A stretch of DNA of 43,681 nt from the NCBI GenBank assembly GCA_017482685.1, contig JAFUMP010000020.1, forward strand, positions 1 to 43,681. The letters run 5' to 3'. This document shows, one piece after another, positions 1-29,542 of this stretch. This DNA is from a bacterium. Lineage in GTDB: Bacteria; Cyanobacteriota; Vampirovibrionia; Gastranaerophilales; Gastranaerophilaceae. A program made the translations under genes and the position numbers. Position 1 is the stretch's first letter; every line of letters starts with the position of its first letter. The notes under the pieces were generated by a model. The model made no database searches. It was given only the letters and a program-made list of their open reading frames with translations, and was not told the DNA's origin.

Positions 1-5
1 GCCAT
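1..5 (-). CDS. Start of a gene running off the left edge
   Basis: Only ATG plus two bases are inside the window. A good ribosome binding site (TAGGAG on the minus strand, positions 15-20) lies 9 nt before the ATG, so a real gene is likely. It has the same orientation as the flagellar operon but is separated from flhA by about 190 nt that contain their own promoter-like motif, so it may be transcribed separately. The product cannot be identified from this window. Confidence 0.6.
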
Positions 6-121: not shown

Positions 122-162
122 GTATATATAAAGTATTTAAATAATAAAAAATTGCCTTTTTG
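122..162 (-). promoter_or_regulatory. Promoter-like motif, copy A
   Basis: Read on the minus strand: CAAAAAGGCAATTTTTT, 9 nt, then ATACTTTATATATA. The same arrangement occurs upstream of the LysM-lysozyme (27984-28026) and, less exactly, upstream of the 816-residue protein (9732-9774). It lies between flhA and the left-edge gene, with about 110 nt left before that gene's ATG, which would make a long leader. That it is a promoter is inferred from position and conservation. Confidence 0.5.
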
Positions 163-193
163 AGAGCTATTTGTTAAGTTTTGTTAAGATATT

Positions 194-8391: not shown

Positions 8392-9720
8392 ATGCAAGAA
8401 GTTACTATAATCGGTGCAGGACTTGCTGGTTCAGAAGCCGCTTTACAATTATCAAAAAGAGGTATAAAAGTTAAATTATATGAAATGCGCCCTAACAAAA
8501 CAACTGGCGCGCACGTAGGTTCAGATTGTGCTGAATTTGTTTGCTCAAACAGCTTAGGCTCCTTGGATATAACAAATGCAAGCGGACTTCTAAAGAAAGA
8601 AATGGAAATTTTAGGCGGAGAGCTTATTAAAATTGCCTTAGAAAACTCTGTCCCAGCTGGAAATGCTCTTGCTATTGCTCGTGAAGACTTTTCAAGAGCT
8701 GTTACAAAAAGAATTGAAAACGACACTAATATTGAACTTATAAGAGAAGAGTTAACAGAAATTCCTGAAGGCAATGTAATTATAGCTTCAGGACCTTTGA
8801 CAAGTGATTCTTTAGCTGAAAGCATAAAAGAGTTTACAAAAAGTGAACATTTACACTTTTTCGACGCAATAGCTCCTATTGTTGAAATGGATTCAATAAA
8901 TTTTGAAAAAGCGTTTTGGGCTTCAAGATATGACAAAGGAGAAGCTTCTTATATAAATTGTCCTATGAATAAAGAAGAATACGAACGCTTCTATAATATA
9001 TTGATTAATGCACCAAGAATCGAACAACACGATATTGATAAAAAAGCTAAATTTTTTGAGTCTTGTCTACCTGTAGAAGTTCTTGCATCTCGTGGAGTTG
9101 ACACTTTGAGATTCGGCCCTATGAAACCTGTTGGGCTTGTAGATAAACGCACAGGGGTTGAAAACTATGCAGTAGTTCAGCTTAGACAAGATAACTCTGC
9201 AAAAACACTGTTTAACCTTGTTGGCTTCCAAACAAATCTAAAATGGGGTGCACAAAAAGAATTATTACAATCAATTCCAGGGTTAGAAGAAGTAAATATT
9301 GTACGTTACGGTGTAATGCACCGCAACACATTTATAAACAGCCCACAAGTATTAGACCCTACAATGGAAGCTCGTGAACGAAAAGGCCTGTTCTTTGCAG
9401 GACAATTAACTGGTACGGAAGGCTATACAGAATCTATTGCAACAGGCATGTTAGCTGGTATAAATATGGCAAAACATATTTTAGATGAAGAACTTTGGAT
9501 TCTACCAAAAGAAACTATTTTAGGTGCTTTAACTAGATATATATCAGATAAAGCCCATCTTGAAGATTCGAAATTTACTTTCCAACCTATTAATTCTAAT
9601 TGGGCACTAGTTCCTCCAGTAGAATTACCTAAAAAAGAAAGAAAAAATAAAAAACTCAAAAACGAGCTTCTTGCAAAGCGTTCGCTTGAAACCTTAGATT
9701 ACTTTGTAAAGAATTATTAA
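8392..9720 (+). CDS. trmFO: Methylenetetrahydrofolate-tRNA-(uracil-5-)-methyltransferase
   Basis: TrmFO makes ribothymidine at tRNA position 54 using methylenetetrahydrofolate and FADH2. The 442 residues open with the FAD-binding motif IIGAGLAGSEAALQLSKRG and contain CAEFVCSNSLGS with the catalytic-type Cys at residue 51. A second conserved region (GQLTGTEGYTESIATGMLAG) lies near residue 340, and a second Cys in YINCPMN lies near residue 191. Length and motifs are standard. The start lies 3 nt after the diguanylate cyclase stop, so the two genes are co-transcribed, probably by chance rather than function. Confidence 0.95.
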   Translation: MQEVTIIGAGLAGSEAALQLSKRGIKVKLYEMRPNKTTGAHVGSDCAEFVCSNSLGSLDITNASGLLKKEMEILGGELIKIALENSVPAGNALAIAREDFSRAVTKRIENDTNIELIREELTEIPEGNVIIASGPLTSDSLAESIKEFTKSEHLHFFDAIAPIVEMDSINFEKAFWASRYDKGEASYINCPMNKEEYERFYNILINAPRIEQHDIDKKAKFFESCLPVEVLASRGVDTLRFGPMKPVGLVDKRTGVENYAVVQLRQDNSAKTLFNLVGFQTNLKWGAQKELLQSIPGLEEVNIVRYGVMHRNTFINSPQVLDPTMEARERKGLFFAGQLTGTEGYTESIATGMLAGINMAKHILDEELWILPKETILGALTRYISDKAHLEDSKFTFQPINSNWALVPPVELPKKERKNKKLKNELLAKRSLETLDYFVKNY

Positions 9721-9731
9721 GCAAATTTTAA

Positions 9732-9774
9732 CTAAAAACGCAATTTTTAACTCCTGAAAAACTTTATATCTATA
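9732..9774 (+). promoter_or_regulatory. Promoter-like motif, copy C
   Basis: CTAAAAACGCAATTTTT is followed by about 12 nt and then CTTTATATCTATA, about 35 nt before the ATG of the 816-residue protein. It resembles copies A and B with a few mismatches. Spacing between the GC and CTTTATA elements (23 nt from the first G/C to CTTTATA) is kept to within 1 nt in all three. Confidence 0.45.
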
Positions 9775-9808: not shown

Positions 9809-12259
9809 ATGGGTATCGACGTATCTAAAATTCAAAATGCAGCATTAAGAAAATTAGCTGATAAGGCAAATGTTAATGATAATGATAAAACAACTCTAAA
9901 TAGAACTGAATTCATTGACTTTACTGTAGAAGCAATGGAGTCAAAAAAAACAAAAAAAGCTTGGACAGAATTATTTGGTCATACAACAGAACCAAATTCA
10001 AGAGAAGAAGTAAAACAAGAAAAAACAAGATTGGCGCAAGATAATTTAAGTAAAACAGAAAAAAGGGAATTAAAAAACAACTTACAAAAATTAACAACAT
10101 TGAGCGAGGTTGAAGCTTATTTTAACAACCCTGAGTTACATTCAAGCTACAATGATATCAAAGAAGCTTCATTAATGATGTTGAACGAAATTAAAAGCAT
10201 GAACATTAACTCAAAAGATGATGTTGAAGCAATTAAAGATAAAATTAAAGATAAATTCAAAAACACAAATGGTCTAAATGGTGATATTTTAAATATCTTA
10301 GTTGATATTGCAGAAAAAGAACAAATCCAAAAAGAAACACAAAGACTAATTGATATTTATCATAGTACAAGCGAAAGTCAAGACGTATTGAACAGATTTG
10401 ATTCAAGAGTTGAGGCTGTAAGAGCTAAAATGGATGAAATGAGCTTAACAGGAACATCTTATTACAAAAAAGCTTTCGAAAATATGATGGCTGAAGTAAT
10501 GAAAGACGCAGATTATGAAGTTGATAACCTTAGAAAAGGTGTTAAAGGCACTACTTCAAAAGAAATTAGAAAAGAACTTGAAGAAAAAGCTATGGGTGAT
10601 AAAACTTTAGAAAAAGCTATTAAAAAAGATAAAGTTGATAATGAACTACAAGCTCGTTATACTAACTACAATATTATAACTAGAATGCTAAAAGATAACA
10701 TGGATAAAGATTCAATGGATGCCATCTTACAAGAAAAATTAGATAAAGATACTTATATTAAAATAAGAAATGCATACCAAAAAGAAGACGGAAAATACAT
10801 GGGCTTAGTTGGATTACAAGCTGGACTAAAAGACAAAATTGGTTCAGATTTAAAACTAAATGCTTCACAAAACACTGAGATTGCTGAACTTACTTTCGTT
10901 AAACGATATTTAAAAGATGCAACAGGCTCTGATTTTAGTGATAGCCAAGTTAAGGATTTAGTTAAATTCTTAGGATTTGAATACGAAACAAAAGATAGAT
11001 CTTTAGAAACTGTAATGGAAGATACTTTACCTGGAGCAATAATTGGTGCGGGCTCAGCGGCAGCATTTGCTACAAGATTAAAAGTAGAACAATATGTTAA
11101 TATGAAAATTACAGCAGACTTATCCGAATCTTTAAAATCTCAATTAGGCGATAAAATTGTTGCATCTAGCACTGACTCTGATGGATTAATTAACCTAAAA
11201 GTCGCACAAAAAGTAGTAAAAGATGACACTATTATTGCAGCTTTGAGTGGTGCTGGAATCGGTACAATAGTAACAGCTTTATTTAACCTAATTGAAGGCA
11301 AAGATATCCCATTTGAAAAAGCTTGCTTCTCAAAAAGTGAACTCTCAGCTATCGTAAGAGGCTCTGAATCATTAGAAGATGCTAAAAATAAAATTTGTCA
11401 GCAATATCAAGGATTAAAAGGCTCTATTTTATCAGCTTTATTACAAAAAGCTCATGATGCAAAACCAGACGACTGGAAAAACAACTACATCAATGTAATC
11501 GACAAAATAGCTGGTAAATATTCAAATATGAACTGCGAAGAATTACAAGGTGTTAAATTTGATGAAATTGAAGAACTACTAGCTGAAGAACTTCACACTT
11601 ATAACACTAAAGATACTGAAGGTACACCTGATAAATTAGTAGCTGTACAAGTTGATACAATTGATGCAAGAAAATCTTCTTGGTCAAAATTAGTAGAGCA
11701 ATACGATTGTCTAAAAGATATTGAAATTGACCCTAACAAATATCCACTAAGTGCGAAAAAAGATAAAGAAACTTTAGCAATAAGAATGTTAAAAGTAGCT
11801 CAAGCTATTAATGATAATGATTATAGCAAAGAAAGATTATTAGATTTAGCAGAAAAAACATTCGCAGCTGATAGAAACTATACACAATTAAAAGATTACG
11901 AAGGAATTGACTACAACGTATTAGTTGGCACAATGAAAGCTGAATTAATGGGTACAAAAGTTAAAATGCCAGCAGTGTTAGCTTACGAAAAAGTACAAAA
12001 AGAAGACGGTACTTATGAAATCGTTGGTGGTTGCAATAGAACTAACAAAGATATAAAAGCAACTGTTGAAGATAACACTGGTACAAAAGCCGCAGTAGAT
12101 TCAGCTCAAGACTATGTAACAAAAAAAGGTGAAGACGGCAAATTATATGTAAAATTTGACGGCGGTGATTGGATCGAATGCCAAGACGAACTTGATAGAA
12201 ATGCAAAAATCGAAGAATTTAAAGCAAAATACAAAAATGTAAAAAAAGAAGAAGAATAA
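9809..12259 (+). CDS. Large helical protein of unknown function (816 aa)
   Basis: Not recognised. The product is acidic/lysine-rich and mostly helical with no signal peptide. Residues 23-34 (NDNDKTTLNRTE) fit a degenerate EF-hand loop, with hydrophobic L at position 8 and E at position 12. Two Gly/Ala-rich hydrophobic stretches interrupt the charged sequence: ~405-424 (PGAIIGAGSAAAFATRL) and ~473-495 (AALSGAGIGTIVTALFNLI). They could insert in a membrane as hairpins. The C-terminal ~75 residues look like a small beta-rich domain. AAAAAGGAG gives a strong binding site. It has its own promoter-like motif and a clear terminator, so it is a single-gene unit. Membrane-active or exported roles are possible but unsupported beyond these features. 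Confidence 0.85.
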   Translation: MGIDVSKIQNAALRKLADKANVNDNDKTTLNRTEFIDFTVEAMESKKTKKAWTELFGHTTEPNSREEVKQEKTRLAQDNLSKTEKRELKNNLQKLTTLSEVEAYFNNPELHSSYNDIKEASLMMLNEIKSMNINSKDDVEAIKDKIKDKFKNTNGLNGDILNILVDIAEKEQIQKETQRLIDIYHSTSESQDVLNRFDSRVEAVRAKMDEMSLTGTSYYKKAFENMMAEVMKDADYEVDNLRKGVKGTTSKEIRKELEEKAMGDKTLEKAIKKDKVDNELQARYTNYNIITRMLKDNMDKDSMDAILQEKLDKDTYIKIRNAYQKEDGKYMGLVGLQAGLKDKIGSDLKLNASQNTEIAELTFVKRYLKDATGSDFSDSQVKDLVKFLGFEYETKDRSLETVMEDTLPGAIIGAGSAAAFATRLKVEQYVNMKITADLSESLKSQLGDKIVASSTDSDGLINLKVAQKVVKDDTIIAALSGAGIGTIVTALFNLIEGKDIPFEKACFSKSELSAIVRGSESLEDAKNKICQQYQGLKGSILSALLQKAHDAKPDDWKNNYINVIDKIAGKYSNMNCEELQGVKFDEIEELLAEELHTYNTKDTEGTPDKLVAVQVDTIDARKSSWSKLVEQYDCLKDIEIDPNKYPLSAKKDKETLAIRMLKVAQAINDNDYSKERLLDLAEKTFAADRNYTQLKDYEGIDYNVLVGTMKAELMGTKVKMPAVLAYEKVQKEDGTYEIVGGCNRTNKDIKATVEDNTGTKAAVDSAQDYVTKKGEDGKLYVKFDGGDWIECQDELDRNAKIEEFKAKYKNVKKEEE

Positions 12260-12376: not shown

Positions 12377-14338
12377 TTATGAAAAGAAGTCTTCAAGATC
12401 TGTAACTGGTCCGTCAACACCTTCATTATTGTTATTTTTTGTATTATCAATAATTTCTTGTAACTTTTCAATAATAACTTTTAAAGATGCATCACATTTG
12501 CAAGATTCAGGCATATTGTCAATAACTTCTTGAAGTTTATCAATTACAGCTTGATTACCATCTTTTATCGCATTTTTAATACCTTCTAATGAAACTAATA
12601 CCAAAGAAGCTTTTGCATCAGCACTTGTCAACACTTCTCCATTAGCTTTTTCTTGAGCTAAAATATCTGCAAGCATTGATTCTACTGTTGAAAGATCTAC
12701 TTTTTCACCAACGCTAATGTTAGCAATCGCTTCAAGGATTTTATCACCATATTTACCAAATTTATCCATATTAGCTAAAATCTCTGTAACTAATTTATTA
12801 GTACCTTTTGCAACTTCAGTATTTTTATTAATTGCTTCTAGAATTTTATTAGTAGCGTCTTTTCCTTGTTCTTGAAGTTTATCTTGATTAGCAATAATAA
12901 CCTTCAATAATGCAATTTGTTCTGCACCTAACTTATCAGATTTTGCTAACAATTCCTTCAATAAAGCTGTTGTTTCTTTGTTAAAGTTTTGAACATTTTG
13001 AAGTACAGTTTGTAATAAACTATGAGTTTTTTCATCCATTGCAGCATCTTGTTTCATATGTGCTTGTAATGTATTCCAAATATTTTTCAATAAACTTATA
13101 ACTTCTGTATTATCTGAAGAATTTGCTTTACCCATAGCTTCAAGTATTAAAGCTAAGATTTCTCCATTTTTAGCGTTTATTTTATTTCCATTATTTACTT
13201 GATTCAAGATTTCATTAAGTAATTTTTGTCCGTCTTTACCCAAGTTTTCTAAATTATTGAATAATTTTGCAAATGCATTTGCCACACTAGCATCAAGATT
13301 TTTTACACTTTCAATTAATAGCATAATATTTTGTTTATTTTCTTCGCTAAAGTTTTGGATATTTTCTAAAATAGCTTTCAATAAATCATGAGTTTTTGCA
13401 TCCATATCTTTATTTTCTTGAATAGCTTTTTCTAAAGCTGCCCAAATTTTATTTAATAGTGTAAATGAAGATTTGTCATTTTTATCCAATTGAGTTAATT
13501 GTTTAATAACAATTGATAATAATGTATTATTTTGAGTACTTAATTCATTTGCTGTAGTAATTGCTGTTAAAATTTCAGTAAGCATTGCTTTTTGTTCATC
13601 GCCTAATTCATCAATTTTTTCAATTACATTTGTTAATTCTGTTTTTACAGTTGCATCAAGATTATCAACCTTTTGAATTAATAAAGTTAACAATTCTTTA
13701 TTTTCTGCATTGAATTTTTCTTGGTTATTAGCAATTTGAGTTAACAAATCAATAGTTGCTTGATCCATTTTTTCATTATGTTCTATGCTATAATTAATTC
13801 TTTCAAGAATAGCATTTAATATTTCCATTCCTTCTTTATCATTCTTTTCTAAATTCTTTAAACAGCTTATAACTGTATTTAATAGTTGTTGGTTTTCTGC
13901 TGAAATTTGGTTATTTTTTTCTAAAAGGTCAATAACCTTTAATAATAATTCTTGTGTTTTTTCTTGACCATCTACAAGTGGAGCTAAAGCTTCATAAAGA
14001 GCATTAATAAGAGATTTTGTATCAATATTTACATCAACATTTTGTGAAATTTGATCTTTTTCACAAGATGTCATAGTTGTTAATGTTGTCATTGCCATTG
14101 TACCTGCTAATAATAAAGTTAAAGCTTTCTCTTTTAATGTTTTTAAATGAGGGGTTCCAGCCATTTTCACGCCTTGGAATGTCATATTATTTTGTGCCAT
14201 TGCATCTAAAGCGCTCATTTTACCATTAGGATTTGAAACTGGTGCTTCTGGAGAAGCTGTTGTTGGAACTGGAGCTTCTTTTGCTCTTAGTTTCATGTTT
14301 CTGTTGATTAGCATTAGCTCTTGCGAATTGATGTTCAT
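12377..14338 (-). CDS. Lipoprotein-like protein built of ~121-residue helical repeats (653 aa)
   Basis: Not recognised. Residues ~69-92 form a lipoprotein-type signal (KEKALTLLLAGTMAMTTL then TTMTSC) with lipidation Cys at 92, preceded by a ~68-residue Pro-rich extension. The rest is Leu/Asn/Lys-rich amphipathic helix with an internal repeat: MDQATIDLL at 191, MDAKTHDLL at 312 and MDEKTHSLL at 434 mark units of 121 and 122 residues, with a partial unit before. The first ATG has AAGGAG 9 nt upstream; an in-frame ATG at 14164 (residue 59) has AAGGCG 7 nt upstream and would give a normal 33-residue signal peptide. Either start is possible. The C-terminus has CKC near residue 616 and an acidic tail. 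A cell-envelope fibre or coiled-coil anchor is the likeliest role, by inference. Confidence 0.85.
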   Translation of the reverse strand: MNINSQELMLINRNMKLRAKEAPVPTTASPEAPVSNPNGKMSALDAMAQNNMTFQGVKMAGTPHLKTLKEKALTLLLAGTMAMTTLTTMTSCEKDQISQNVDVNIDTKSLINALYEALAPLVDGQEKTQELLLKVIDLLEKNNQISAENQQLLNTVISCLKNLEKNDKEGMEILNAILERINYSIEHNEKMDQATIDLLTQIANNQEKFNAENKELLTLLIQKVDNLDATVKTELTNVIEKIDELGDEQKAMLTEILTAITTANELSTQNNTLLSIVIKQLTQLDKNDKSSFTLLNKIWAALEKAIQENKDMDAKTHDLLKAILENIQNFSEENKQNIMLLIESVKNLDASVANAFAKLFNNLENLGKDGQKLLNEILNQVNNGNKINAKNGEILALILEAMGKANSSDNTEVISLLKNIWNTLQAHMKQDAAMDEKTHSLLQTVLQNVQNFNKETTALLKELLAKSDKLGAEQIALLKVIIANQDKLQEQGKDATNKILEAINKNTEVAKGTNKLVTEILANMDKFGKYGDKILEAIANISVGEKVDLSTVESMLADILAQEKANGEVLTSADAKASLVLVSLEGIKNAIKDGNQAVIDKLQEVIDNMPESCKCDASLKVIIEKLQEIIDNTKNNNNEGVDGPVTDLEDFFS

Positions 14339-16323: not shown

Positions 16324-16361
16324 AACAAGTTAAAGCTCGTAATCTTCGAGCTTTTCTTGTT
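16324..16361. terminator. Shared hairpin terminator between convergent genes
   Basis: AACAAG, TT, AAAGCTCG, 7-nt loop, CGAGCTTT, T, CTTGTT, then TTTT. It lies 11 nt after the stop of the exported protein and overlaps the last ~10 codons and the stop of the opposing sigma-factor gene, so those codons are also constrained by hairpin pairing. Confidence 0.7.
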
Positions 16362-16962
16362 TTAGAAGCTCTTTTTTAACTTTATCCAAAGCGTTTTGAA
16401 TGATTCTTGAAATTCTTGATTGCGAAATATTGAATTCAGCTGAAATATCTTTTAATTTTTTATCATAAAAATATTTAGCTTCGATTAAATCTTGTTCTCT
16501 TTGAGGAAGTTTTTTCATAACTTCACAAATCCTAGCTTTTAGTTCAAGTAGCTCAGCTTTCTCATCAGGAGTTCTTCCTGAATCTTTTATTAAAGTTGGA
16601 TTCTCTGCTTCAGCCATTTCATCTATCGATAGAATTGTCTTGTAAACAGCATCCTTTATACTTTCTTGGCTTGGATTTTCATCATCTTTCATAGCATGCC
16701 ATTTATAACGACGACGCATTTCGTTACGTATTGCCCATCTAATAGCTTTTGCAAGATAAGCTTCGTTATATTCTTGCTTAGAATTATTAACAAGATAATA
16801 GACTGTATAATTCGCCAAGTTGATTAGCTCTGACAAGTCAATAAGTCCTAAGTTTGAAAACTTTTTATACTCAACTTTGCAAACTGTTTCAATTAAATCT
16901 CTATGTAAAGAAAGGTTAATCCTTCCTTCCCTCTCTTTATTAATTGTATCTATATCTTTCAT
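16330..16962 (-). CDS. Sigma-70-family sigma factor (FliA/SigB-like)
   Basis: This 210-residue protein has a short region 2 (~35-90, GLIDLSELINLANYT and then AYLAKAIRWAIRNEMRRRY). A variable linker (~95-140) leads to a region 4 helix-turn-helix at the C-terminus (LKDISAEFNISQSRISRIIQ). The size and single regions 2 and 4 fit the FliA/WhiG/SigB group rather than the primary sigma. Given the flagellar operon 10 kb away it could direct late flagellar or surface-protein genes, but its targets cannot be read here. The ATG has no ribosome binding site and a -10-like TATATT ends 7 nt before it, suggesting a leaderless mRNA. Confidence 0.85.
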   Translation of the reverse strand: MKDIDTINKEREGRINLSLHRDLIETVCKVEYKKFSNLGLIDLSELINLANYTVYYLVNNSKQEYNEAYLAKAIRWAIRNEMRRRYKWHAMKDDENPSQESIKDAVYKTILSIDEMAEAENPTLIKDSGRTPDEKAELLELKARICEVMKKLPQREQDLIEAKYFYDKKLKDISAEFNISQSRISRIIQNALDKVKKELLKQEKLEDYEL

Positions 16963-17029: not shown

Positions 17030-17055
17030 AATAAGTGAAAAAAGAGGTTATAAGA

Positions 17056-17562
17056 ATGAGAACTTTAAGATATATAAAAACTGTTGCATTGACATTATTT
17101 TGTGCGACTTTATTAACAACAAGCAATCTATGCTTTAATACAGTTACAGCTCAACCTGTTGCAACTCCTGTTACTGACACAGTAACAACTCAAGAACAAT
17201 TCACAAATCCACTTGCAATAGTAGCTTCTCCAAAAAGTTTTTTGAACAAAACTGTTACTATGAATGCAAAATTTGATAAATTTTCAACATTAGGTCTTGA
17301 TTATAAGCCTGCTATGAAATCCTCAGAACAATACATTTCATTTTTAATTAAGCGTAACGATACAACATTTGATATTCCTTTATCTGAAATGAAATTGTTT
17401 TTAAAAAGAGAACAAGCTGAAAAGCTAATTGATTTAAAAACTAATGATGAAATAAGAATCACTGGCACGATTTTTTCTGATGCTTTAGGTGATCCTTGGA
17501 TAGATGTAAGTAATTTAACATTAATTAAGAAAGCACCTGAGAAAAAAGACGGAGTTAACTAA
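17056..17562 (+). CDS. Exported OB-fold-like protein
   Basis: The start is the ATG 8 nt after AGAGG; an in-frame GTG 21 nt upstream lies before the binding site and is rejected. The ~168-residue product begins with a long Sec signal (about 33 residues, ending TVTAQ). The mature part (~55-160) looks like an OB-fold: NKTVTMNAKFDKFSTLGL, a central region, then DEIRITGTIFSDALGDPWID and VSNLTLIKK. Such folds often bind ligands, but no specific one can be inferred. The stop codon abuts the start of the GH57 gene, so the two form an operon. Confidence 0.85.
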   Translation: MRTLRYIKTVALTLFCATLLTTSNLCFNTVTAQPVATPVTDTVTTQEQFTNPLAIVASPKSFLNKTVTMNAKFDKFSTLGLDYKPAMKSSEQYISFLIKRNDTTFDIPLSEMKLFLKREQAEKLIDLKTNDEIRITGTIFSDALGDPWIDVSNLTLIKKAPEKKDGVN

Positions 17563-27896: not shown

Positions 27897-27983
27897 TTTG
27901 CACTCCGCTTCCACTGCATATCATACCATAATTTTATTAAATTGTATATACAATTTTTAAAAGTTATCTTTCATATTTCGTTA

Positions 27984-28026
27984 CAAAAAGGCAATTTTTT
28001 GAAAAAAGAAATACTTTATATATATA
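27984..28026 (+). promoter_or_regulatory. Promoter-like motif, copy B
   Basis: CAAAAAGGCAATTTTTT, 10 nt, then ATACTTTATATATA, about 30 nt before the LysM-lysozyme ATG. It agrees with copy A over nearly all positions outside the spacer. A sigma-70-like reading (TTGAAA at 27999, TATATA at 28021) is also possible. Confidence 0.5.
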
Positions 28027-28057: not shown

Positions 28058-29542
28058 ATGAGCAAATGTTTTTATGTCCAATTAGAATCAAAAAATTATA
28101 GCGAAAGAATTCTAATGCAAGAAGGTACCCGTTTTGAAAACAAAGGTAAAAGATATACCATGGGATCAGACGGTGAACTTTCTATTTTTGATAAAGAAAC
28201 CCAAGAAATAACAAAAGGTAACACGATTGAATTAAGAGATTATCAATATCAAACTTTTAAAGCTGTTATGAACAACCATGATGAAAAAAAGGGGATTGCA
28301 ACCCTTAGTAATAAAGATATAGAGCTTTCATTAAAACAACATGAAAAAGGAAATGTTACAACAGATTTAGGAGAATTTCTTAAAGGAGATTATGAAGTCG
28401 AAAACCCTCGAAGATTTCCTAATGAAAATAAATTGTCTGCATACATAACAAATGGTAGAAAAAGCACTAGTGCTGTTTTGGCTTTTAGCTATAACGTCGT
28501 TGAAAAAGCTACGACAAAACCTGTAACACCAGAAAAAGATTCTAATTTACCAATAGAATCTACAACACCTGTTAAACCAACGCAAGGTGCTTTTACAGGC
28601 ACAGGATTATTTAATAATCCTAATATTAAAGAAAAAAGAGCTTTCACATATACTTGTAAAAAAGGAGATAACCTAGTAACACTTGCAAAAACATACGAAA
28701 TTGATACTTATCAAATAATTGCTGCAAACCCGCAGTTAGAAAAAGGTGTTGATTACAATGTAACTTTTCCTAAAAACGGACTAGCTAACTTAACTAGTAA
28801 TTTAAAACCAGGACAAAAAATAATAATTCCTGCTCGATATGATGTTAAAAAAGGCTCTTGCAAATCTGTTAATGATGTTGCAAAAATAGCTGGTGTTTCA
28901 GTGGATTTTCTTAAAGATTTTTTAACTATTGTCGAAACAAAAGAACAAAATGGTGAACCAGATTATAAAACGTACTTAGATGATGGAGGAACACCAACAA
29001 TAGGTTATGGACATACAGGTAGAGTTAATGGCAAACCGCTATCATGTAGAAAAGGCAAAAAAATTAGAATAGATAAAAAAGAAGCTTTAGAAATTTTAGC
29101 CGAAGATTTACTTAAACATAAAGCTATGACAATGGCTTACCTTGGAAAAGAAAATTACCTTAAAGCTCCTCGTTCAGTACAAGATGCTATTTTAGATGTT
29201 GCATATAATAAAGGTATTTGGGATGGTTATTTAACAAACCAAGGTTACGCTAAATCTACATCAAAAATAAAAGAAGATTTACAAAAAGGTCATTACGCTT
29301 CCGCATTAGTGCATACAAGACGAGAAAAAACTGGTTTTAGAGGTTTGAGAAAACGTAATATCTACAGATTTATATCTGGTCTAAAAGATCTCCCTACGGA
29401 TAAAAGAAAGGCTGCAATAAAAGCCATGACGTCATATTATAAACAAGAACTTGCAAAATGCAAAAGTTACGACAGAGAAGCTCTTAGGTCAGCTTGGGAA
29501 AATGCAAGACAAGGCAAATGCACAGGTTATAACCTAAAATAA
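28058..29542 (+). CDS. LysM-GH24 lysozyme-like protein without a signal peptide
   Basis: The 494-residue product has an N-terminal domain I do not recognise (~1-145), a Pro/Thr linker (~150-185), a LysM peptidoglycan-binding repeat (~196-260, with YTCKKGDNLVTLAKTYEI and later LKPGQKIIIPARY), and a GH24-type muramidase region (~285-430). The latter includes YLDDGGTPTIGYGHT, close to the T4-lysozyme-type pattern. The catalytic Glu is one residue nearer to the Asp than usual (E300). No Sec signal or lipobox is visible, so export would need another route or lysis. It could act in peptidoglycan remodelling or in a phage-like or flagellar context; this is inference. Confidence 0.8.
   Translation: MSKCFYVQLESKNYSERILMQEGTRFENKGKRYTMGSDGELSIFDKETQEITKGNTIELRDYQYQTFKAVMNNHDEKKGIATLSNKDIELSLKQHEKGNVTTDLGEFLKGDYEVENPRRFPNENKLSAYITNGRKSTSAVLAFSYNVVEKATTKPVTPEKDSNLPIESTTPVKPTQGAFTGTGLFNNPNIKEKRAFTYTCKKGDNLVTLAKTYEIDTYQIIAANPQLEKGVDYNVTFPKNGLANLTSNLKPGQKIIIPARYDVKKGSCKSVNDVAKIAGVSVDFLKDFLTIVETKEQNGEPDYKTYLDDGGTPTIGYGHTGRVNGKPLSCRKGKKIRIDKKEALEILAEDLLKHKAMTMAYLGKENYLKAPRSVQDAILDVAYNKGIWDGYLTNQGYAKSTSKIKEDLQKGHYASALVHTRREKTGFRGLRKRNIYRFISGLKDLPTDKRKAAIKAMTSYYKQELAKCKSYDREALRSAWENARQGKCTGYNLK

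Follow-up and report, generated by a model that had tools for sequence, protein, structure and literature searches.

A putative core promoter specific to the order Gastranaerophilales, often accompanied by an HLR1-like element

The element in the window and in the source genome

The Gastranaerophilales are non-photosynthetic gut relatives of the Cyanobacteria. The stretch analysed here, contig JAFUMP010000020.1 of the Gastranaerophilaceae assembly GCA_017482685.1 at its full length of 43,681 nucleotides (the window), contains three copies of a promoter-like element in which a first box, GCAATTTTT, is followed after 13 or 14 nucleotides by CTTTATA. Site A lies on the minus strand at 122-162 (core 127-156, exact pattern 127-155) and is an exact match that agrees with all 22 informative core positions. 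Site B lies on the plus strand at 9732-9774 (core 9740-9768), matches GCAATTTTTN13CTTTATA exactly and agrees with 20 of the 22 positions of the extended core. Site C, on the plus strand at 27984-28026 (core 27990-28020, exact pattern 27991-28020), is also an exact match, with one additional base in the spacer. The window therefore holds three matches to GCAATTTTT-N13/14-CTTTATA, compared to a mean of 0.00 and a maximum of 0 in 100 dinucleotide shuffles. The sequence-only reading that first pointed to these sites had placed them correctly but drew the element too short, given that the conserved part also includes an invariant A, A-rich DNA upstream and TATATA downstream.

The three genes that had been named as targets are indeed those read downstream of sites A, B, and C. 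Site A precedes a gene for an 80-residue protein at the left edge, of which the window contains the first codon (1-5, minus strand); the contig ends here, and the gene is readable at contig C13. The target of site B encodes a protein of 816 residues (9809-12259, plus strand) without an assigned Pfam, NCBIfam, or PADLOC family, and that of site C a protein of 494 residues with LysM and phage-lysozyme domains (28058-29542, plus strand; PF00959 with 3.2e-09, PF01476 with 2.1e-05).

The sequence-only reading had suggested searching the whole genome with this spacing. In the source genome (G000; 1,504,136 bases in 65 contigs, 74% complete) the pattern RGCAATTTTTN{8,14}CTTTATA has 19 matches and its reversed form none, and the spacer is 13 nucleotides long in 18 of the 19, the sole exception being the site at 27990 with 14. 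Fixing the spacer and relaxing the boxes (GCAATTTTTN13CTTTATA) results in 20 exact matches, 21 with one and 31 with two mismatches, 72 altogether, against six for the reversed pattern with up to two mismatches; the matches with one or two mismatches are a mixture. Column counts over the 20 exact sites give GCAATTTTT and ACTTTATATATA as the conserved boxes. The A directly before CTTTATA, which was not part of the search pattern, is invariant (20/20), and A-rich DNA upstream of the first box as well as TATATA downstream of the second are favoured. Within 676 kb, comprising the window and 69 related loci, GCAATTTT and CTTTATA are combined at only two neighbouring spacings, with six and one matches, three of these seven being the window's own sites, and at no other gap between 5 and 29. 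As a further frequent class of second box in the genus, TGTTTTTATA had been considered, but it has no match in the 676 kb. Its status as a second box rests on the CopG orthologs described below and on some of the genome matches with one or two mismatches.

The element is directional. Among the 86 unique exact sites with enough flanking sequence, a Shine-Dalgarno start together with an open reading frame (ORF) of at least 100 residues is found within 110 nucleotides downstream in 45 cases and on the opposite side in four. A location within an ORF of at least 100 residues is seen for only one of the 86 sites (L045), and this is a mechanical frame on the site's own strand. For the targets, 111 loci of sites with zero to two mismatches were examined, eight of which had no ORF, and 89 targets were kept. 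Their start codons, sought downstream only, are located at a median of 66 nucleotides past the core G; the starts were assigned with a simple Shine-Dalgarno criterion that has probably misplaced some of them (e.g. L032; L006 came out with a late start). The core is common to unrelated genes while the sequences of the spacers vary.

Conservation over longer distances can be followed upstream of small CopG-type proteins of 62 residues, which are present in 21 of 23 chosen genomes. The upstream regions of 26 of the 30 orthologs are readable, no start having been found for the other four. In the window's genus (n=4) 21 to 22 of the 22 core positions are kept. Outside the genus (n=22), 17 regions score at least 18/22 (0.12 expected by shuffling) and ten at least 20 (0.00 expected), while those of G034 and G041 are at chance level (14-16). 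In these more distant orthologs the first box AGCAATTTT and the distance are mostly retained, but the second box is often TGTTTTTATATAA or GTGTTTATATA and not ACTTTATATATA. A core of fixed length persists upstream of the CopG-type genes across families with a changed second box.

The exact motif was found in 51 of 57 relatives including the source genome, and the reversed pattern in none of the 57. Every genome of the same genus (34/34, source included) contains 10 to 37 exact copies, other families of the order contain zero to nine, and the single genome taken from another part of the class has none. A stricter form of the motif is present in 169 of 386 genomes of the phylum, all of them inside the order Gastranaerophilales (reversed control 0); among these 386 genomes it is absent from the other members of the class and from the rest of the phylum, presumably including the photosynthetic Cyanobacteria. 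Within the window's own family, the genus g38 is almost devoid of the strict form (0, 1, 0, and 0 copies in four genomes). Core, spacing, direction, conservation, and taxonomic limits can be read from the sequences, and they suggest a class of promoters that is restricted to the order and has this motif as its core. That it functions as a promoter we infer from the same comparisons, which agree with the sequence-only reading in that a promoter-like element is common to these loci. If the second box is taken as the -10 element, the first box is positioned at about -37 to -29.

HLR1-like repeats and RpaB

In Cyanobacteria, HLR1 is described in the passages devoted to it as a pair of (G/T)TTACA(T/A)(T/A) repeats that are two nucleotides apart and bound by RpaB (PMC11633204, PMC9241938; examples in PMC6331805). 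The same three sources associate an HLR1 located upstream of the core promoter with activation. RpaA and RpaB have been noted in Melainabacteria since 2013, in two of three papers together with NblS, and the passages concerned do not assign them a role there (PMC3787301, PMC4040986, PMC5877343); one of them remarks that the melainabacterial proteins "may have another function" (PMC3787301).

For 91 unique exact sites, taken from as many as twenty genomes of the order, we scanned the 90 nucleotides upstream and compared the scores to shuffle expectations. At least 14 of the 16 consensus positions are matched at 48 sites (4.65 expected), the other 43 scoring below 14; at least 15 are matched at 31 sites (0.45 expected), and the HLR1 is perfect at eight (0 expected). 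The elements with at least 14 matches are concentrated at offsets of -32 (same strand) or -34 to -37 (opposite strand). The enrichment is mainly seen with the canonical gap of two nucleotides, with which 31 of the 91 sites reach 15/16, whereas gaps of 0, 1, and 3-11 nucleotides give only zero to seven. Of the 19 exact sites of the source genome that were scored, 13 reach at least 14. Orthologous sites in these counts are not independent, while the sites of the source genome precede mostly unrelated genes. The source genome also encodes RpaB (L305), which scores 353.3 bits with NF045944 against an NCBIfam equivalog cut-off of 330. Enrichment of HLR1, its position, and the RpaB gene are direct observations, and the element with its regulator is an addition to what the sequence-only reading had described.

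Each of the three sites in the window is accompanied by such a repeat with 14/16 consensus positions. Upstream of site A it is a direct repeat at 170-187 (minus strand) at an offset of -32 from the core G, upstream of site B it has the opposite orientation (9703-9720, minus strand, offset -37), and upstream of site C (27970-27987, plus strand) the offset of -21 is unusual compared to the usual -32. Individually these elements are weak because the window holds 14 matches at 14/16 in all.

The resemblance to the HLR1/RpaB regulon of Cyanobacteria thus comprises two KTTACAWW repeats with a two-nucleotide gap, their placement about 50-70 nucleotides before the inferred start, and an RpaB gene above the NCBIfam cut-off. 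The two differ in that the targets seen here are not photosynthesis or high-light genes, that the element is coupled to a lineage-specific core promoter, and that binding is predicted.

The proteins encoded downstream

Apart from the window's own targets, the genes served by the element encode CopG-type regulators, CHAP, glucosaminidase/GH108, transglutaminase-core, HEAT-repeat, DHH, and ADP-ribosyltransferase-like proteins. The domain scan covered 81 of a list of 82 proteins plus two whole ORFs of the window in two sets (37 + 46), L035 being replaced by the window ORF; the list was restricted to proteins of at least 40 residues and to those remaining after removal of seven names (duplicates, masked or doubtful). 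A family was assigned to only about seven of the 37 and about a dozen of the 46 proteins, as estimated from tallies that cover 25 of the 35 families for the second set. Below threshold, matches to toxin-type ADP-ribosyltransferase (0.054) and metallopeptidase (0.028) families are to be taken as hints only. The same applies to JAB/MPN-, kinase-, metalloprotease-, and GNAT-like domains that had been called by eye and found no support above the cut-off.

The targets had been expected to be surface or exported proteins, and this is mostly not borne out: a simple test detected a Sec-type hydrophobic N-terminus in none of the 54 targets of at least 120 residues, though outside this set two proteins (at L156 and L329) look Sec-exported by eye. 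The background of this test, 52 of 305, consists of syntenic and hence repeated genes, which makes the p-value unusable.

Sigma factors and the reading of the core

Promoters of sigma-54 have GG at -24 and GC at -12, and the column counts contain no conserved GC at that distance. The consensus of sigma-28 (FliA) promoters is TAAA-N14-16-GCCGATAA; the boxes found here differ from TAAA-N15-GCCGATAA, and a scan for the FliA consensus in 515 kb of loci from the genus gave 0 matches and 0 reversed ones, which is uninformative either way. What is shared with the flagellar sigma-28 systems is a candidate sigma factor with a FliA/WhiG-like region 4 in a flagellated genome. The boxes GCAATTTTT and ACTTTATATATA also do not fit the housekeeping sigma-70 consensus TTGACA/TATAAT (PMC2758279) at a distance of 16-18 nucleotides, which is weak evidence on sigma usage since this consensus is not enriched in the genus. 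The type 3 promoter of the cyanobacterial SigF is described as TAGGC at -32 and GGTAA at -12 in the part of PMC2758279 that deals with it. The type 3 promoter (pilA1) belongs to a group 3 sigma factor and resembles the element here in having two boxes with GGC in the first, but the second box here is ACTTTATA or TGTTTTTATA and not GGTAA, which is absent, and G occupies position -1 in only 12 of 20 sites. The J-Box of SigJ is characterised by an invariant GGG in an extended -10 element, as far as PMC6495340 describes it. This Nostoc promoter is likewise a widely conserved promoter marking a sigma regulon, but it combines a weak -35 region with GGG, whereas here the upstream box is strong and the core contains no GGG. 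The boxes therefore fit none of these systems, and the sequence-only reading had already stated that there is no clear sigma-70, sigma-54, or sigma-28 consensus.

The source genome has ten region-4 matches. NCBIfam identifies FliA, group-2-like, and SigF-like proteins among them, and by eye there are one RpoD-like protein, two resembling extracytoplasmic function (ECF) sigma factors, and two resembling LuxR-type regulators (L028, L029). The other two are a pair of short related sigma factors (L023 and L024). One member of the pair, of 210 residues, is encoded in the window (L023; 16330-16962, minus strand). It belongs to the sigma-70 family (Sigma70_r4 with 4e-12, TIGR02937 with 3.8e-20) and has PDB profile matches to WhiG, FliA, and SigA, of which WhiG and FliA are the nearest solved chains. 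Its AlphaFold model is all-helical and of modest confidence (predicted local distance difference test 74.4, predicted template modelling score 0.43), and the matching folds are sigma factors of several kinds with low TM-scores. We found 70 relatives of the gene, one of them very weak. The second member is located on contig 24 (L024:1471-2154), and by our own count its type is matched in 33 of the 34 genomes of the genus. Proteins of either type are also present in further genera of the family, where the window type is less conserved. The sigma alignment left out L302, which has a stop inside its span. FliA itself was considered as the reader by way of the flagellin genes and rejected: the exact core occurs in only one of 30 flagellin-family loci (L329), where it precedes a different, haemagglutinin-like gene. 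The upstream stretches were readable in 25 of these loci and five had none, with doubtful starts in, for example, L322, L334, and L335. The 34 genomes of the genus have 5-13 Flagellin_N matches each.

In the reading that we consider probable, the element is an order-specific core promoter that likely uses an alternative sigma factor, often with RpaB as an activator. GCAATTTTT would occupy a -35-like and ACTTTATATATA a -10-like place at a fixed distance from each other. The unusual form of the boxes points to an alternative sigma factor belonging to this lineage, and the short FliA-like pair (window 16330-16962 and L024) would provide the most attractive candidates, their main rival being RpoD together with an activator. 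An HLR1 is located just upstream in about half of the copies examined, at approximately -69 to -52 with the second box taken as the -10 element, and RpaB probably binds to it, helping RNA polymerase. The genes served in this way would mostly encode proteins without a family, some of which have enzyme domains with a possible action on cell walls or other cells, together with the small CopG-type regulators. Binding and activation by RpaB, the identity of the reading sigma factor, and an effector role of the targets are all predictions from sequence. Because it rests on the style of the proteins, the effector idea in particular is to be taken as a hypothesis.

A number of observations weigh against this reading or against parts of it. 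The transcription starts of the class are predictions from sequence, and the way the search was built in itself imposes conservation on the C of CTTTATA and, at sites without HLR1, on the core. Of 83 scored promoters, which include sites with one mismatch and a few duplicates and leave out site C (L006), 35 have no HLR1 of at least 14/16 within 70 nucleotides, so that RpaB cannot be the sole input. HLR1 sequences of at least 15/16 are also found away from the core, with 28 sites in the 515 kb against ten for the reversed motif, mostly with no core nearby; for perfect HLR1 the numbers are 15 and two, while at the looser threshold of 14/16 the 118 matches are hardly above the 100 of the reversed control. 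Given these distant sites and the promoters lacking the element, RpaB looks like a broader regulator for which this class is one part, and it probably has further targets beyond the core promoter class. Concerning the sigma factors, the window type is only weakly matched in four of the 34 same-genus drafts that bear the motif, and no core with up to two mismatches is found at its own gene. Every sigma type compared, except the ECF protein L026, has counterparts in both motif-rich and motif-poor genera, and co-occurrence therefore fails to single out a sigma factor; this comparison was based on six genomes scanned for region-4 proteins, with not every low-scoring locus included. The loci of the genus show no enrichment of TTGACA-N16-18-TATAAT (0 against 1 reversed), so that a missing TTGACA alone is no proof of an alternative sigma factor. 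Finally, effector-like domains are sparse among the targets, and two proteins downstream of the element look as if they were exported by Sec: a 34-residue frame at a contig end with a signal sequence evident by eye but below the length limit of the test (L156 on C54, one mismatch), and a haemagglutinin-like protein with a signal sequence, also by eye, downstream of an exact core on the minus strand near 2687 (L329 in G029).

The alternative that survives best, although we think it rather unlikely, is that the core is read by the housekeeping sigma factor and that GCAATTTTT, instead of forming a -35 element, belongs to an activator site or to bent A/T-rich DNA, with RpaB or another regulator replacing TTGACA as in class II activation. 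The TATATA of the second box would be a tolerable -10 element, roughly half of the sites are accompanied by an activator-type element that is suitably spaced, and the lack of enrichment of TTGACA-TATAAT suggests that housekeeping promoters in the genus may dispense with TTGACA anyway. In addition, the PDB entries 9dvt and 9dvu contain a cyanobacterial RpaA together with a SigA1, so that there are structures combining a related regulator and a housekeeping sigma factor. However, the A before CTTTATA is invariant in 20 of 20 sites, which is unlike a plain -10 element, the first box is kept across the order, and TGNTATAAT is enriched in the genus loci (99 against 48 reversed), so that housekeeping -10 boxes seem to look different.

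If the core is instead read by an alternative sigma factor, the one encoded at 16330-16962 could be dedicated to this class, as the sequence-only reading had suggested as a possibility, which we judge unlikely for this protein taken singly. It is short and has a FliA/WhiG-like region 4, and it is matched at 1e-30 or better in 51 of 56 genomes of the order and not at 1e-5 in one genome of another order of the same class, which also lacks the motif. But the four drafts in which the match is only weak (G006, G012, G016, and G018) keep 15, 19, 10, and 10 exact motifs, respectively, the protein is present in the motif-poor g38, and its own gene lacks the core. The weak matches could reflect gaps in the assemblies. 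Less probable still is the SigF-like sigma factor (L027/L119), reading the core as the cyanobacterial SigF reads TAGGC/GGTAA. It is matched at 1e-38 or better in 53 of 57 genomes, and the TAGGC box given for -32 in PMC2758279 has GGC in common with the first box; yet apart from the absence of GGTAA, the match is only weak in G017, a genome with 13 exact motifs that is 97% complete, and the protein is also present in G056, which has none. That the motif is not a promoter at all but a repeat element, a protein-binding site, or a chance A/T-rich similarity is very unlikely, since despite the very A/T-rich sequence and two copies with identical downstream leaders, which are due to gene duplication, the reversed controls are 0, the spacing is fixed, the sites are oriented towards many unrelated genes, and the spacers vary.

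HLR1, RpaB, and promoters of alternative sigma factors are already known kinds. Among the open-licence PMC papers listed in our searches, neither this promoter class nor any RpaB targets were described for Gastranaerophilales or Melainabacteria. A far-reaching and doubtful extension of the order-specific, often RpaB-activated promoter would be that the gut-dwelling Gastranaerophilales have kept RpaB, the light and redox master regulator of Cyanobacteria, and rewired it onto an order-specific alternative-sigma promoter to switch on fast-evolving effector-like proteins, exported mostly by a non-Sec route such as the flagellar apparatus. If this were true, the promoter would be a genome-wide tag for undiscovered effectors directed at the host or at neighbouring cells. 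HLR1 sites at fixed positions ahead of a defined class of promoters offer a concrete and testable set of RpaB targets in bacteria living in the dark, and the link between HLR1 and the promoter bears on the role of RpaB before the control of photosynthesis. In practical terms, the promoter is a means to list co-regulated and mostly unannotated genes in a little-known group of animal-gut bacteria.

Some minor observations concern the genes around these elements. The exact core at L329 also has an HLR1-like stretch upstream, and a possible adhesin may thus belong to this promoter class. Divergent from the sigma gene of the window, a protein of 175 residues (17035-17562) with a hydrophobic N-terminus by eye is matched in 73 loci, in some genomes twice, which indicates a conserved neighbourhood with the sigma gene. 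A repetitive protein of 653 residues (12377-14338, minus strand) has a hydrophobic stretch near its N-terminus and no match in the related loci compared. Lastly, an identical leader and gene start of the left-edge gene are found at three contig ends, namely at 1-123 of the window, at the end of C28, and partly at the start of C13. Because the same leader appears at all three, the 80-residue gene is probably present in multiple copies, and this repeat probably breaks the assembly. Copies of the motif near contig ends are also found in G033 and G005.
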